48,926 nt of DNA, from contig JACQVB010000121.1 in the NCBI GenBank assembly GCA_016209985.1, positions 1 to 48,926 of the forward strand, given 5' to 3'. The position numbers were made by a program, and so were the translations under genes. Positions 28,931-38,450 of this stretch are shown one piece after another. The stretch comes from Gemmatimonadota bacterium (GTDB lineage Bacteria; Gemmatimonadota; Gemmatimonadetes; Gemmatimonadales; GWC2-71-9). Position 1 is the first letter of the stretch. Every line of letters begins with the position of its first letter. The notes under the pieces were generated by a model. It saw nothing but the letters and a program-made list of their open reading frames with translations, did no database searches and was not told the DNA's origin.

Positions 28931-30013
28931 ATGATGCGGTGCTGCCGGGTTTTGGCAATGAATCAGACTGTGCTTCGGCGCGCCGCCCTTGCGCTCGCTT
29001 CCATCTCCCTTCTTGCCGTGTCTGCCTGCAAAGACACCTCCGCTCCCGGCAATACTCCGGGGCCCGCGACCAAGCTGGCCTTCACGGTCCAGCCTTCGAA
29101 CACCACTTCGAAAGCGGCGATCACGCCGGCGGTGCACGTGACCATACAGGATGCGTCGGGGAATACGGTCACGACCGCCAACAACAGCATCACGCTGGCG
29201 ATCGGGACCAACTCAGGCAACGGCACGCTCTCGGGCACGACGACGGTCACCGCGGTGAACGGCGTCGCGACGTTCACCACCCTGAGCATCGACAAGGTGG
29301 GCACCGGCTATACCCTGGCCGCGTCGGCGAGCGGGCTCACGGAGGCGACGAGCACCGGGTTCAACGTGGCGGCTGGAACCGGGGCCAAGCTCACCTTCAC
29401 CGTGCAACCCGCGAATACGGCGGCGGGGGCAGCCATTGCCCCGGCGGTCCAGGTGACGGTGCAGGACGCCTCCGGGAATACCATCACGAGCGCCACGAAC
29501 AGCATCACGCTTGGGCTCGGGATCAATCCGTCGAGCGGGACCCTCTCCGGCACGACGACCGCCGCGGCGGTGAACGGCGTCGCGACCTTCAGTAACCTGA
29601 GCATCGACAAGATGGGCACCGGTTACACGCTGATCGCGATCGCCACTGGCCTGGAGAGCGGTATCAGCGCCGCGTTCGACGTGACCGTGGGTGCTGCAGC
29701 CAAGCTGGCCTTCACCGTGCAGCCCACGAACACGGTCTCCGGCGCCGCCATCACGCCGGCGGTGCAGGTCGTGGTGCAGGATGCGGCCGGGAACACGGTA
29801 ACGACCGCGACCAACAGCATCACGCTGGCGATCGGGGCCAACCCGGCGGGCGGGACACTCTCGGGCACCGCGACGGTCGCGGCGGTGAGCGGACGGCACG
29901 CATTAGTCGTTCCATCCTATCTGCGCCCGCACGGTGAAGCTCAGGAACGAGGTCTTCCTTTGACAAGAGCTCCGAGACTGCCTCTCGGAAGTTTGCGCCA
30001 CGGCGAACGGTGA
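28931..30013 (+). pseudogene. Ig-like-repeat lipoprotein, truncated in its third repeat
   Basis: Lipoprotein signal ending LAVSAC, preceded by GGGAGGGG. About 100-residue tandem repeats follow, each beginning AKLAFTVQP or the like and containing PAVQVTVQDASGNT, NSITLAIG, GTLSGTTT, NGVATFSNLSIDK and GTGYTL. Two repeats are complete (about residues 45-250). The third runs normally to GTLSGTATVAAV at about 29890, then switches abruptly to unrelated sequence (SGRHALVVPSYLRPHG...), exactly where NGVATF should follow. Related proteins usually carry many such repeats plus a C-terminal domain, so this looks like the front of a larger surface protein cut by a rearrangement. Start could also be ATG 28958. 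Confidence 0.75.
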
Positions 30014-30105: not shown

Positions 30106-30167
30106 AGGGATCAGACTTCACCCCTCGCATATGAGACTAACCGCCAGCCGGTGTTAAACTCATCCGT

Positions 30168-30272
30168 GTTGACTGAAGTCTAAGGTGCGTTGACTGAAGT
30201 CTAAGGTGCGTTGACTGAAGTCTGAGGTGCGTTGACTGAAGTCTGGCCCGTGTTGACTGCAGTCAGATTCGT
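30168..30272 (+). repeat. 21-bp direct-repeat array
   Basis: Five consecutive 21-bp units starting GTTGACTGAAGTC (the fifth has GTTGACTGCAGTC). The tail is TAAGGTGC in units 1 and 2, TGAGGTGC in unit 3 and diverged after that. Each unit carries the near-palindrome GACTGAAGTC. The period equals two helical turns, so all copies face the same side of the DNA. The surrounding gap, 30014-30434, has no convincing gene; the minus-strand frame across the array only yields a repeated DFSQRTL heptad. Confidence 0.85.
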
Positions 30273-30475: not shown

Positions 30476-31810
30476 CTATTCACCGCGGTCCGTGACTACC
30501 CTCCCGCCCACGACCGGGATGGTGAACCAGAACGTGCTTCCCTGGCCTGGCTGGCTTTCGACACCGATGCGCCCACCATGCTGGTGGATGATCGTTTTGG
30601 CGATGAACAGCCCCAAACCGGCTCCGGTCGACCCCGGTGGTCGCTTGCGCCAATAGCGCTCGAACACCAGCTCGTGGTCTGCTCGCGGTATTCCCGGCCC
30701 GTGATCCGTTACGGAAATCCGGACCTCCGTTTCGACGCCCCGGGCCCGAACCGTGACGGTGCCTCCCGCCGGGCTGAAGTCAATCGCGTTCTCGATCAGG
30801 TTGCCCAGGGCCTGTTGGACGCGAGGCGAATCGGCCTGGACGGGAGGCAGATCCGCGGGCACCTCGAGCCGGAGCGTAACCGAACTACTCTGGGACAGCG
30901 ATCGATAGGTTTCCGTCGCGGCGGTGATCAGGTCCAATGCGGAACACGGGCTGGGTGAAACCGAAAGCTCTCCGGTCTCCGCGGCTGCCCCCTCGAGCAA
31001 AGTCTGCAGCAGGCCGCTCATCAGCGTGGCCGAGCGCCGGATGGCTTCCAACCGGCGGCGCCGGCCAGGCTCGTCCCGCATCGGCGTCTCCAGCAGCAGG
31101 TACGCCTCAAAGCCGGTGGTATAGGCCAGACTCCTGAGATCGCGGGAAACGATGCCCAGGAGTTCCTCCCGGCTGCGGTTGGCCGCCCGCGCCTCTTCCA
31201 GCGCGAGCTGCTCGCGTTGGAGAAGATCCGTCGTCGCCTGCTCCAGTGATTGGGCGCGCTCGCGCGCGACGACTTCGCGCCGCCACGCGATATGCCGATC
31301 CAGGGCGATCGCGAGCTGATTGACCACCGTGTTCAGAAAAATCAGGTACTCCTCATCCATCGGGCCTGAGCGTTCGATTTGCAAGGCGCCGAATACCGGT
31401 CGATGGCCAACCACCAGGGGAAGCATGATGAAAGGTCCCTGGGTCTGGGTCGTTGCGGCGGCCGGGTTCTTCACCGGCGGCCGGGCACGGAGCAAACGAG
31501 GGCTGGGAGTCGAGCGTTCAGGTCCCTGATCGGCGGGCGAGGCGGAACCGCGGAAGTACGCCCGGTACGATGCGCGCGCACGGTCCTCCGCCTCCTGGAG
31601 CTGGGTCGCACTCGCGTCCTCGGCCCGCCACGCACGCACGGTCGGCTGCTTCTCGATCTCCGCGATGAGCACGGCGGTGCGAAGGGGGATGGCTTCGCTG
31701 AGGGTATCGAGAATGGCGGGGACGACTTGCTCCACGGTTTCGAATTGGATCAACGCTTTGCTGATCTCCAGGAGCAGCTCCATCCTCTCCGAAACGACCG
31801 GAGCCTTCAC
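30476..31810 (-). CDS. GAF-domain sensor kinase lacking the phospho-acceptor histidine
   Basis: The 444-aa soluble protein has a GAF domain (about 10-180), a coiled-coil (about 180-215), a HisKA-like dimerisation helix and a complete HATPase. ATPase motifs are all present: N box NLIENAIDFSP, G1 DHGPGIP, F box FERYWRKRP and G2 GAGLGLFIAK. In the H box, where SHDLR is expected, the sequence is GIVSRDLRSLAY: Arg223 (CGC, 31142-31144) replaces the phosphorylated His. It therefore cannot autophosphorylate in the standard way. It may act as an ATP-binding signalling partner or heterodimer half, or be decaying. GTG 31810 has AAGGAG seven bases upstream, overlapping the KaiC-like stop region; the older frame start at 31882 is unsupported. 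Confidence 0.88.
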   Translation of the reverse strand: MKAPVVSERMELLLEISKALIQFETVEQVVPAILDTLSEAIPLRTAVLIAEIEKQPTVRAWRAEDASATQLQEAEDRARASYRAYFRGSASPADQGPERSTPSPRLLRARPPVKNPAAATTQTQGPFIMLPLVVGHRPVFGALQIERSGPMDEEYLIFLNTVVNQLAIALDRHIAWRREVVARERAQSLEQATTDLLQREQLALEEARAANRSREELLGIVSRDLRSLAYTTGFEAYLLLETPMRDEPGRRRRLEAIRRSATLMSGLLQTLLEGAAAETGELSVSPSPCSALDLITAATETYRSLSQSSSVTLRLEVPADLPPVQADSPRVQQALGNLIENAIDFSPAGGTVTVRARGVETEVRISVTDHGPGIPRADHELVFERYWRKRPPGSTGAGLGLFIAKTIIHQHGGRIGVESQPGQGSTFWFTIPVVGGRVVTDRGE

Positions 31811-31814
31811 CAAC

Positions 31815-33275
31815 TCACTCCTTCCCGCGTCCGCGCCGCTTGGGAGGACTCTCCGGAGTCGCCTCGACCGCCCCCTGAGCAAACACGGAAACCCCGCCGG
31901 ACTTGATAGCCATTCGCTGCCGACCGGTGACGTGGGCCGTGTTTCTCAGCTTGTACACTTCCAGGTAGCGCTGGCGATCCATGCCGTTTTCCGTCGAGGT
32001 CAGCAGAATGACGCCGTCGACGATGGTTTCTTCTACCCCCAACCGGCTGATCAACCCCGAGCCATACGGGACATCGGTCGCGAAGAACCCGACCGCACCA
32101 GCGTTTTGGACGATGGTGGCGAGCTGGAAGACCTTCTCCTGGGCGATGCGGGTGTCTTCCACCTTGTGGAGGAGCACCGACGCCGAGTCAATCGCCACCC
32201 GCCGGGCACCGGCGAGGTTCACCCGCTGCTGCATCATGAGCAGGTCGGCCTCGAGCATGATGTCCGGCTGGGGAATGTAGACGATCTCCACCATGCCGCG
32301 ATCGATTTCGCGGTCCAGGTCCCAACCCAGCCCGCGAGCGGTCGCCCCCAGTCGCTCCGGGGTCTCCTCGAATGCGAAGAGGATGCCCTTTTGGCCCGCC
32401 CGCGCCCCGCGATATAGGAATTCCAGGAGCAGCACCGTCTTGCCGGTTCCCGGGGCCCCGGACACCAGGACGCTGGAGCCATGCGGAATACCTTCACCCA
32501 GCAGCTGGTCCAGGCCGGCAATGCCGGTCGGAACCCGGGGAGCCTCGCGTCGCTGGCGATCGGCTTCGGCGCTGCGCCGGATGGTGACCCGGGGAGCGAA
32601 TGCCTCGATCCCGTTGGTGCCGATGGCGAACGGGTGCGCGTCTCTGCTGTGCGAGATGCCCCGCATCTTGTGAATCTGGAGGAACCGCTGCCATTCGCCC
32701 GACACTTCCCGGTACGACAGCGCCATCAAGCCGTCCACGATGGAAAAGAGCGGGTTGCTCTCGTAATCGGCGGGCGCGTACTCGCCGATCAGCAGACCGG
32801 TGACCTCCCACGCCATCAGGTTGACGGCGATCTGGTAGCCGAATTTCCGCATGTCGTCCTTGGACCTGGCGAGGTCATCGAACGTCTTGAAACTGTCCAC
32901 CACGACGATGGCCGGCTCGACCCGCTTCACGTGTTCCATCATCAGCTCGCTGGCTTGTCCCAACCCGTCCCCTCGCAGGATTCGACCCAGGTCGACCAGG
33001 TGAACGGCCGTCTCGATCTTGGCACGGTCGAAGAACGAGAATTGGCTGATGTAGAGCAGCGTCTTCGCCACCGGCTCGGTCAGGGTGCTGAAGTAGAGCA
33101 CGCGACTCGCCGCCGACGCGTTGTGAAAGCAGACCTGCTGCGCCAGGATGGTCTTGCCCGAGCCGGGCGGGCCTGCGACGACCGTGACCGCGCCCTTGGG
33201 TAGCCCTTCTCCCAGGATCACGTCGAGATTGCGGACGCCGGTCTTCCAACGCGGAATGCCGCCCTGGGCCGTCAT
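31815..33275 (-). CDS. two-domain KaiC-like ATPase
   Basis: RecA-fold protein of 486 aa with the double-domain architecture of circadian KaiC (519 aa in cyanobacteria). Domain I: Walker A GPPGSGKT (35-42), Walker B IVVVDS (122-127). Domain II: Walker A GAPGTGKT (273-280), catalytic Glu pair FEETPERL (303-304), Walker B VAIDS (360-364). In domain I the Glu pair position reads STLTEP, so its ATPase is probably weak. By hand alignment the KaiC phosphosites Ser431/Thr432 correspond to Glu416-Thr417 in GVEETIVDG. There is no kaiA or kaiB beside it. GGAGGAG precedes the ATG. Coupled to the genes on both sides, so it acts with them; hexamer formation is expected from the family. Confidence 0.9.
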   Translation of the reverse strand: MTAQGGIPRWKTGVRNLDVILGEGLPKGAVTVVAGPPGSGKTILAQQVCFHNASAASRVLYFSTLTEPVAKTLLYISQFSFFDRAKIETAVHLVDLGRILRGDGLGQASELMMEHVKRVEPAIVVVDSFKTFDDLARSKDDMRKFGYQIAVNLMAWEVTGLLIGEYAPADYESNPLFSIVDGLMALSYREVSGEWQRFLQIHKMRGISHSRDAHPFAIGTNGIEAFAPRVTIRRSAEADRQRREAPRVPTGIAGLDQLLGEGIPHGSSVLVSGAPGTGKTVLLLEFLYRGARAGQKGILFAFEETPERLGATARGLGWDLDREIDRGMVEIVYIPQPDIMLEADLLMMQQRVNLAGARRVAIDSASVLLHKVEDTRIAQEKVFQLATIVQNAGAVGFFATDVPYGSGLISRLGVEETIVDGVILLTSTENGMDRQRYLEVYKLRNTAHVTGRQRMAIKSGGVSVFAQGAVEATPESPPKRRGRGKE

Positions 33276-33754
33276 CGTTCTGCTCCTCCGCTTTCGCGGT
33301 TCTGGGTAGCCGGGGAGCGTTGCTGGGGCCGATCCCGGCCGGCGGCCAGATCCTCGAGCCTGACTTTCGCGAGCTCCTCGTGCAATGCTGGAGTGAGAAC
33401 CTCGGCGGTCAGATTGCCGATGACCGTGAGAAACTGGACCAGCGTCGCGCGCATTCCCTGGCGGAGCTGCTCTCCGTCTTCGGGTTTCACGCGCTGGCGG
33501 AGCTGGCGGAATTGAACTCCGGTACCGTCTTCCATCTGGAGCGCTGCCAGGAGGGGAAACTGATCCGACGCGTTGCGCAGGACGCGATCGACCACGGCGA
33601 ACAATGTGACGTCACCCAACGTAACGTGCGTGCGACGCCACAGGGTGTTGAACCCCTGCTCGAATGCTGCGACCACCAGCTCGGGCGCTGCGCCTTTCGG
33701 CACGCGCGCCATCCATGCATTTACCTGGGCGGCGTGCGCCGATTCGTCATGCAC
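33272..33754 (-). CDS. helical protein of unknown function in the KaiC-kinase operon
   Basis: The 160-aa product has a GTG start. It is probably mostly alpha-helical (AQVNAWMARVPKGAAPELVV, FEQGFNTLWRRTHVTLGDVT, then a long MRATLVQFLTVIGNLTAEVL helix) with a disordered Gln/Arg-rich tail. No Kai B-type thioredoxin fold or response-regulator motif is visible. Its stop overlaps the KaiC-like ATG (ATGA), making it first gene of a three-gene coupled operon. That position suggests an adaptor or sensor for the ATPase (inference). The 234-bp gap upstream is AT-richer and should hold the promoter. Confidence 0.7.
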   Translation of the reverse strand: MHDESAHAAQVNAWMARVPKGAAPELVVAAFEQGFNTLWRRTHVTLGDVTLFAVVDRVLRNASDQFPLLAALQMEDGTGVQFRQLRQRVKPEDGEQLRQGMRATLVQFLTVIGNLTAEVLTPALHEELAKVRLEDLAAGRDRPQQRSPATQNRESGGAER

Positions 33755-36535: not shown

Positions 36536-37323
36536 GAGGCCGACAGCCCCCAGACGATGGTCGCAATGCCGACCACCCAGCAATACGGCGCGAACCGGTA
36601 GAAGCTTCCCTTTCGCAGCAGCACGATCAGCCACCGGATGGCGAATACCCCGGAGATCATGGCGAGCAGAAAACTCAGCATTAGTGGCCCGGTCCCCACC
36701 GCGACCGCGTTGGTGGAAAGCTTGGGCAGCTCCAGGACCGCCGCGCCGGCGATGACCGGTATCGCCATCAGAAACGAGAACTCGCCGGCCAACACCGGAT
36801 CCAGCCCGGACCACATGCCGGCGGCGACCGTGAGGCCGGAGCGGGAGATCGCCGGCACGATCGCCACCGCCTGCCCGAAGCCGATCATCAGCGCGCCGGA
36901 CACCGATGGCGCGGTCGCTCCGGTCTGCTTGGTCCCCAGCCAGCGGGTACTCCAGAGAATGACGCCGGTGACCAGAAACTGGACGCCGTTGGCAACGAGC
37001 GAGTGAAAGCTGGTTTCGAAGTAGTCCTTGAAGAGAATGCCGATCACCCCGGCCGGAATGGTGGCCACCGCCAGCAACCCGAGATAGCGCCAAGTGCCGC
37101 GATTCCCCGCAACGGCGCCCTTCAGCAGGTCGATGATCCGGCGCCAATAGACGATGAAGACCGCGAGCAGCGTCGCCACATGCAGCGCGATTTCGACGAA
37201 CAGCCCCGGCATGCTGACGCCGACCAGCGCCTCGGCCAGGACCAGGTGCCCGGAGCTGGAGATCGGAAGAAACTCGGTGAGACCCTGCACCAGGCCGAGG
37301 ACCGTTCCTTGCCACCAGTTCAT
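36532..37323 (-). CDS. uppP: undecaprenyl-diphosphatase
   Basis: Inner-membrane enzyme of the UppP/BacA family that recycles undecaprenyl diphosphate to the monophosphate carrier for peptidoglycan. The 263-aa product has the two inverted-repeat motifs: LTEFLPISSSGHL (about 15-27, catalytic Glu and the Ser cluster) and IVPAISRSGLTV (about 153-164, catalytic Arg). Coupled by 4-base overlaps to bshA upstream and birA downstream. Confidence 0.97.
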   Translation of the reverse strand: MNWWQGTVLGLVQGLTEFLPISSSGHLVLAEALVGVSMPGLFVEIALHVATLLAVFIVYWRRIIDLLKGAVAGNRGTWRYLGLLAVATIPAGVIGILFKDYFETSFHSLVANGVQFLVTGVILWSTRWLGTKQTGATAPSVSGALMIGFGQAVAIVPAISRSGLTVAAGMWSGLDPVLAGEFSFLMAIPVIAGAAVLELPKLSTNAVAVGTGPLMLSFLLAMISGVFAIRWLIVLLRKGSFYRFAPYCWVVGIATIVWGLSAS

Positions 37324-38450
37324 GACTCGAGCACCCGGCGGTAGAGCTGTTCGTATTGGGGAACCACGCGATCGGCCGTGAACAACTCCGCGCGACGGAT
37401 CGCGGCCTCGCGAGCGGCGCGGCCGCGGGCGGGATCACAGAGCAGTTGCAGTGCGGCACTCGCCATGGTATCGACCGAGCCCACCGGAGCGAGCGCGCCG
37501 GTTTCCCCGTGCACCACCAGCTCGGGGATGCCGCCCACCCGGCTCGCGACGACCGGTACTCCGCACGCCATCGCTTCCAGGGCCGCAAGCCCGAACGATT
37601 CGGTCTCGCTGGGCAGGAGGAAAAGATCGGCCGCCCGGAGCAGGTCCGCGGTCGAGTCGAGCTTGCCGACGAAACGCACGTCCTTTTCCACTTTGAGCGT
37701 GCGCGCTTCCTCCTCGGCGTCTTGCCGGCCGGGGCCGTCTCCGATCAGCATCAGGACGGCAGGCACCTGGGCGCGCACTTTGGCGAAGATCCGCACCACG
37801 TCCACCACCCGCTTGACCTCACGGAAATTGGAAACGTGCACCAGGACCTTGGTGCTTTCGGGTGCGATGGCGCGCCGCTGCCCGGGCTGGGTGGCCGGGA
37901 AATACTCCGCTGGATTGATGAAGTTGGGGATTACGTCAATGGTGCAGCCGTCGCAACCGAAAGCTTTGTAGGTCTCGTCGCGCAGGTATTCCGATACCGC
38001 GGTGACCGCGTCTGAGCGCTCGATGGAGAACTTGGTGATGCTGAAGAACGAATGCTCCTGCCCCACCAGCGTGATGTCGGTCCCGTGCAGCGTGGTCACG
38101 ACCTTGAGGTCGCGCACGCCTTCCAGCATCTGCTTGGCGAGATAGGCTGTGGTCGCATGGGGAATCGCATAGTGCACGTGCATGAGGTCCAGCCGCTCGT
38201 GCAGCGCCACCTCGTGTTGCTTGGCGGCCAGTGCGAGGGTATACGGGAAGAACTTAAAGAGGGGATAATTGCCGCCGCTCACGTCGACTTCATGAAAGAA
38301 GACCCGCTCGCTGTACCCGCGAAGACGGAAGGGCGAGGCGTAGGAAATCATGTGCACCTCGTGTCCCCGCCGGCCCAGCTCCAGTCCCAGCTCGGTGGCG
38401 ACCGCACCCGAACCTCCGTAGGTCGGGTAGCAGGTAATCCCGATCCGCAT
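37320..38450 (-). CDS. bshA: N-acetyl-alpha-D-glucosaminyl L-malate synthase
   Basis: GT4-family glycosyltransferase, 376 aa, first step of bacillithiol synthesis (UDP-GlcNAc + L-malate). The opening MRIGITCYPTYGGSGAVATE is diagnostic of BshA, as are HVHYAIPHATTAYLAK and TTLHGTDITLVG. The C-terminal nucleotide-sugar site is LLPSETESFGLAALEAMACG (E-x7-E motif). bshB and bshC are not in the window. A GT4 enzyme of another specificity cannot be fully excluded, but the N-terminal signature is strong. It overlaps uppP by 4 bp; upstream lies the hairpin at 38478-38555. Confidence 0.9.
   Translation of the reverse strand: MRIGITCYPTYGGSGAVATELGLELGRRGHEVHMISYASPFRLRGYSERVFFHEVDVSGGNYPLFKFFPYTLALAAKQHEVALHERLDLMHVHYAIPHATTAYLAKQMLEGVRDLKVVTTLHGTDITLVGQEHSFFSITKFSIERSDAVTAVSEYLRDETYKAFGCDGCTIDVIPNFINPAEYFPATQPGQRRAIAPESTKVLVHVSNFREVKRVVDVVRIFAKVRAQVPAVLMLIGDGPGRQDAEEEARTLKVEKDVRFVGKLDSTADLLRAADLFLLPSETESFGLAALEAMACGVPVVASRVGGIPELVVHGETGALAPVGSVDTMASAALQLLCDPARGRAAREAAIRRAELFTADRVVPQYEQLYRRVLES

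Follow-up and report, generated by a model that had tools for sequence, protein, structure and literature searches.

The window analysed here is the whole of a 48,926-nucleotide stretch of DNA from a Gemmatimonadota bacterium (GWC2-71-9; contig JACQVB010000121.1). The initial annotation had placed three open reading frames at positions 30476-33754, and all three were located there, on the minus strand. Read in the direction of the genes, the features are the following.

33272..33754, minus strand: gene of a 160-aa helical protein with a GTG start, a divergent member of a KaiC-linked family
33272..33275, minus strand: ATGA stop/start overlap (4 bases) of the 160-aa gene and the KaiC-like gene
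31815..33275, minus strand: gene of a KaiC-like ATPase, 486 aa, with two RecA-type domains and an ATG start at 33275
31818..31821, minus strand: ribosome-binding site (GGAG) of the kinase gene, immediately 5' of the KaiC-like stop codon
30476..31810, minus strand: GAF + HATPase sensor-kinase-like gene, 444 aa, with a degenerate phospho-acceptor domain
31142..31144, minus strand: CGC, coding for Arg 223 of the kinase at the place expected to hold the phospho-accepting His (H-box VSRDLRSL)

Both junctions described in the initial annotation were found in the letters: the stop of the 160-aa gene overlaps the KaiC-like start in the ATGA, and the ribosome site of the kinase gene lies in the stop region of the KaiC-like gene. 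The ribosome site of the KaiC-like gene itself, GGAGGAG, is located within the 160-aa gene. We take the GTG at 31810 as the start of the kinase gene; the TTG at 31813 is also possible. In all three frames the G+C content by codon position is of the coding type. Searches for RNA families gave no match, and the scan for promoters and terminators gave no excess over shuffled sequences. The models of known defence systems gave no meaningful match either, the mad8 hit at E 1e-13 being a shared ATPase match and the others weaker.

Contamination of the contig is unlikely, as an uppP-type housekeeping gene 3 kb off is closest to a same-genus genome (58%). Just downstream of the kinase gene, at 30164-30264, lies a 21-base tandem repeat, GTTGACTGAAGTCTAAGGTGC, in about 4.8 copies, an exact 34-base piece of which occurs nowhere else in the genome. 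Positions 28931-30013 encode an Ig-like repeat protein whose internal repeats are 315 bases long, and its frame stops oddly past the third repeat, perhaps through a frameshift. On the other side of the module, 37320-38450 carries a strong match to BshA of bacillithiol synthesis (513 bits; the cut-off is 274).

A small helical family in front of kaiC

By itself, the 160-aa protein has no match in Pfam or NCBIfam, and a single-sequence search with it among 101 relatives also found nothing. Only a profile built from positional homologues brought the family to light: the neighbourhoods of KaiC homologues in Gemmatimonadota were collected, and the proteins of 140-175 aa occupying the same slot were turned into profiles. 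A profile of 35 members built without the 160-aa protein has that protein as its sole significant match in the whole genome (E 1.4e-9; the next at 0.16). A profile that leaves out the window protein also scores it above all of 1000 shuffles, and hhalign of the 160-aa protein against the family gives E 8.5e-8. Since the 35 relatives recover it from outside, the 160-aa frame is a real gene, and the doubt raised at the outset, that this frame might not be conserved, can be laid to rest. Both the profile of the other members and the slot directly before kaiC make the window protein a member of the family.

None of 35 members matches Pfam at E 0.01, and no member matches NCBIfam at that threshold; in PHROGs one member matches at 0.007, which is not convincing, and the PDB sequences gave no match. 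What had been called an unrecognised small protein in first place is thus a conserved helical family that Pfam, NCBIfam and PHROGs do not contain. AlphaFold2 predicts the 160-aa protein as all helical (pLDDT 86), and a second family member, modelled without the window row, takes the same helix order (pLDDT 86). Foldseek found no match to either model at E 0.001, and the best VIA-align Z scores of the two, 6.2 and 5.2, are middling and point to unrelated proteins. Homology to KaiA was considered and rejected on sequence, the hhalign probability against 1r5q/1q6a being 0.3%. KaiA is also missing among the structural matches listed for the two models, which has no bearing on the four-helix fold of the KaiA C-terminal domain.

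The profile search detected the family in 55 of 395 Gemmatimonadota genomes sampled, a count made with a profile that included the window row. At every one of the 41 loci open to a check by coordinates, the small gene directly precedes a kaiC-like gene on the same strand; overall, this arrangement holds at 56 of 58 Gemmatimonadota loci. The two exceptions are G358, where a small open frame stands with no KaiC, and G346 (locus L151), which is discussed below. The exact 4-base overlap with the kaiC-like gene is present in 33 of the 55 distinct family members. Among named genomes, a scan recovered the small-protein/KaiC pair in Polaromonas, Aquabacterium terrae, Methylotenera, Massilia, Roseateles koreensis and two MAGs, and Oligoflexus has the same gene order; in a broad Pseudomonadota sample the family is rare (3 of 397 others). 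The search for a conserved order that had been suggested at the start therefore gave a positive answer, with the three genes kept in order across Gemmatimonadota and in Burkholderiales. They are found together in related genomes, though the module is missing from the sister species in the genus (G001, a 99% complete genome). At one Duganella locus (L089:1887-5443), a GGDEF-EAL gene separates the small gene from the kaiC-like gene, with a Crp-type regulator coming next.

The KaiC-like ATPase and the third gene

The second protein of the module belongs to the KaiC superfamily: PF06745 matches it twice (E 1e-79), and the KaiC structures of the PDB cover both of its domains at E 1e-62. Its best identity in other genomes is about 34-40%, it found no relatives when used alone as the query in a first scan of genome contigs, and it stays well under the NCBIfam KaiC cut-offs (228 vs 408; 168 vs 546). 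No other full-length KaiC-like gene was found in its genome. In the tree it falls inside a well-supported group (99/96) of receiver-linked and small-protein-linked KaiCs, on a long branch (2.27), with a support of no more than 34/16 for joining it to the small-protein clade.

The motifs were read from an alignment with relatives and the solved KaiC 8zn6. The Walker A motifs are kept in both domains, and the second domain (CII) keeps its catalytic Glu pair, as FEET. In the N-terminal domain (CI) the first catalytic Glu is replaced (LTEP), unlike in a canonical circadian KaiC, which has the Glu pair in both domains; this replacement runs across the whole group. The positions of S431 and T432 are E and T in the window protein, which is not the dual phosphosite of a circadian KaiC, and S/F, A/F or S/Y in the relatives. 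The C-terminal tail has none of the A-loop-like, GYDGIITGxP-like stretch that is present in the relatives carrying the small protein. As had been claimed at the beginning, there is no sign of kaiB: a PF07689 search of the window genome (about 95% complete) gave no match, while 10 of the 22 genomes searched have a KaiB, at separate loci.

The third protein matches HATPase_c (E 2.4e-30) and GAF_2 (E 2.2e-6) in Pfam, with no HisKA match. The N, G1 and G2 boxes of its HATPase_c domain are intact. Its H-box, however, has Arg 223 where the kinases of most relatives keep His, and there is no other His in residues 173 to 370. A single codon change, CAC to CGC, would suffice for the substitution, and the following Pro is lost too; because of this lost Pro and a HisKA domain that is no longer recognised, a single base error is an insufficient explanation. 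The KaiB-like N-terminal domain that characterizes SasA found no model match in the kinase, whose N-terminal half matches GAF instead. The parallel originally drawn with a SasA-like kinase output consequently fares badly, and as Arg replaces the phospho-accepting His with no other His in the region, such an output appears unlikely in the window genome.

The third gene of the relatives varies in type: some have a histidine kinase with GAF or PAS, others a hybrid kinase, a GGDEF-kinase or a GGDEF protein. Two betaproteobacterial third genes (L088:3656-5290 and L092:5352-6632) also have no H-box His and adjoin a GGDEF domain; this loss was apparently a separate event. At another locus (L039:7415-7834), a 140-aa protein with no Pfam match follows the kaiC-like gene, in the slot held by the kinase elsewhere.

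A proposed KaiC-centred signalling hub and its putative partner

The module is real and conserved, its function is unstudied, and in the window its kinase is without a canonical phospho-acceptor. The reading we favour, with a probability of roughly 0.6, is that of a signalling hub of the KaiC superfamily, a translationally coupled three-gene module in which the small helical protein is a dedicated partner of KaiC. The three proteins would be made together around a KaiC-type ATPase ring, presumably a hexamer, which would change its state upon ATP hydrolysis. The small protein would bind the ring and set or read that state, taking the place of KaiA or KaiB of the cyanobacterial clock by function and not by descent. 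The third protein would then relay the state, in the relatives via histidine phosphorylation or cyclic-di-GMP synthesis, and in the window genome perhaps via the GAF and ATP-binding domains with no normal phospho-histidine; the direction of the signal, too, is a prediction from the genes.

The partner role is read from gene order. It is suggested because the small family almost always stands directly before a kaiC-like gene, and because this pair remains constant while the third gene varies among signalling enzymes. The recurrence of the 4-base overlap in 33 of the 55 members and the same order in Burkholderiales and Oligoflexus argue for it as well, as do the Walker A motifs and the CII Glu pair kept in the window KaiC. 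A further argument comes from a sister group of modules, in which a receiver domain fills the first slot; it likewise overlaps or abuts kaiC, and a GAF kinase comes next. Speaking against the favoured reading are the absence of the module from the sister species and the long branch of the window KaiC, which does not appear to be a clear member of the small-protein clade. The L151 locus could also mean that the kinase is the partner in the subtype of the window.

This last point leads to an alternative in which the small protein belongs first of all to the kinase, as a partner or accessory domain, and KaiC is a separable third component. At L151:799-3495 (minus strand) of G346, a domain 47% identical to the 160-aa protein of the window, and its closest homologue, is joined in frame to a GAF-PAS-HisKA-HATPase kinase with no KaiC between them; the GAF domain of that kinase is 38% identical to that of the window kinase and is its closest homologue, and no KaiC was detected in G346, a genome 84% complete. 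A true fusion may stand here, or an overlap broken by a frameshift; in either case the locus ties the small protein to the kinase too. It is, however, a single case near a contig end in an incomplete genome, and its first 75 residues have no standard start codon; the linkage of the small family to KaiC, by comparison, is nearly strict, and the third gene switches type or is no kinase at all (GGDEF, GGDEF-EAL). We therefore consider this alternative unlikely.

The operon of the window could, on a less probable view, be a decaying relic. The His-to-Arg change with no HisKA match would fit such a decay, and so would the divergence of the small protein and of KaiC with its long branch, together with a sister species that has no module. 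A decaying operon would hardly be expected, though, to keep three open frames of coding-type codon composition, intact overlaps and ribosome sites, and intact Walker A motifs and kinase N, G1 and G2 boxes. A time-keeping role, in which the module would be an hourglass or clock outside the cyanobacteria with cycling KaiC phosphorylation, is very improbable: KaiC homology and the hourglass proposed for the Ramlibacter KaiC/kinase pair in the available text of PMC3164672 speak for it, against the E/T of the window and the S/F, A/F or S/Y of the relatives at S431/T432, the KaiB not found in the window genome, the first catalytic Glu replaced throughout the group, and the missing A-loop-like tail.

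Parts of the hub as we read it are already known. According to the available text of the 2011 genome paper of Ramlibacter tataouinensis, KaiC neighbourhoods fall into three groups, one of which has a conserved kinase and no kaiB, while the third is heterogeneous, with receivers, kinases, GGDEF/EAL proteins and poor phosphosites (PMC3164672). The pair Rta_04330/Rta_04340 and this third group likewise have a two-domain KaiC adjoining a kinase, receiver or GGDEF gene, with no KaiA or KaiB, and the phosphorylation sites of the third group are degenerate as in the window. KaiC-kinase pairs without kaiA and kaiB in non-cyanobacteria were thus published in 2011, and the initial view of a KaiC output system of its own type is right for the pairing of the small protein with KaiC and not for KaiC with a kinase as such. 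The small helical family was found in no library searched. No description of it was found in the papers searched; the available text of PMC3164672 leaves it undescribed, and hypothetical proteins drawn in its Figure S6 may be an earlier notice. For archaea, KaiC-like ATPases have been proposed to act as signal-transduction hubs (Makarova 2017, cited in PMC5847659); they too are linked to two-component parts, as here, with no link to the small helical family seen in the available text of PMC5847659.

Like the cyanobacterial KaiABC-SasA clock, the module has a KaiC homologue with a regulator gene in front of it, and its kinase is a possible output. In the window genome no KaiB was found, the small protein has no detectable KaiA sequence homology and the phosphosite pair is not kept, and the kinase differs from SasA by the missing match to a KaiB-like domain and the missing phospho-acceptor His. 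Non-photosynthetic bacteria commonly carry KaiC homologues, and the small family, with its nearly strict tie to a single KaiC branch, offers a concrete candidate for their missing partner. Its occurrence in cultured Burkholderiales (Roseateles koreensis, Aquabacterium terrae, Duganella qianjiadongensis) makes direct tests feasible.

Cyanobacterial KaiA has two parts, a pseudo-receiver and a helical bundle. In the sister modules, the single-domain receivers before kaiC have Glu in place of the phospho-accepting Asp in 11 of 11 cases (L035-L038, L040, L041, L044, L047-L049, L051), while receivers at other loci keep the Asp; judged by this residue, the 11 look like pseudo-receivers. One may speculate, with considerable doubt, that the small helical family, like the Asp-to-Glu receiver, regulates KaiC-like rings, the two being alternatives and together a separately evolved functional parallel of the two parts of KaiA. 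The parallel is suggestive, its helical part having no sequence support (the hhalign value of 0.3%). If it is true, KaiA-type control of KaiC rings would be general in bacteria. KaiA3 of Synechocystis, a KaiC activator in a kai operon, unites a receiver-type and a helical element which here occur in separate sister modules; it has real KaiA homology and a gene before kaiB3, whereas the small family has no homology to the KaiA C-terminal domain (PMC11372060).

Many related Gemmatimonadota have separate kaiB loci besides the module studied here (L116-L125), several of them adjoining a second KaiC type.
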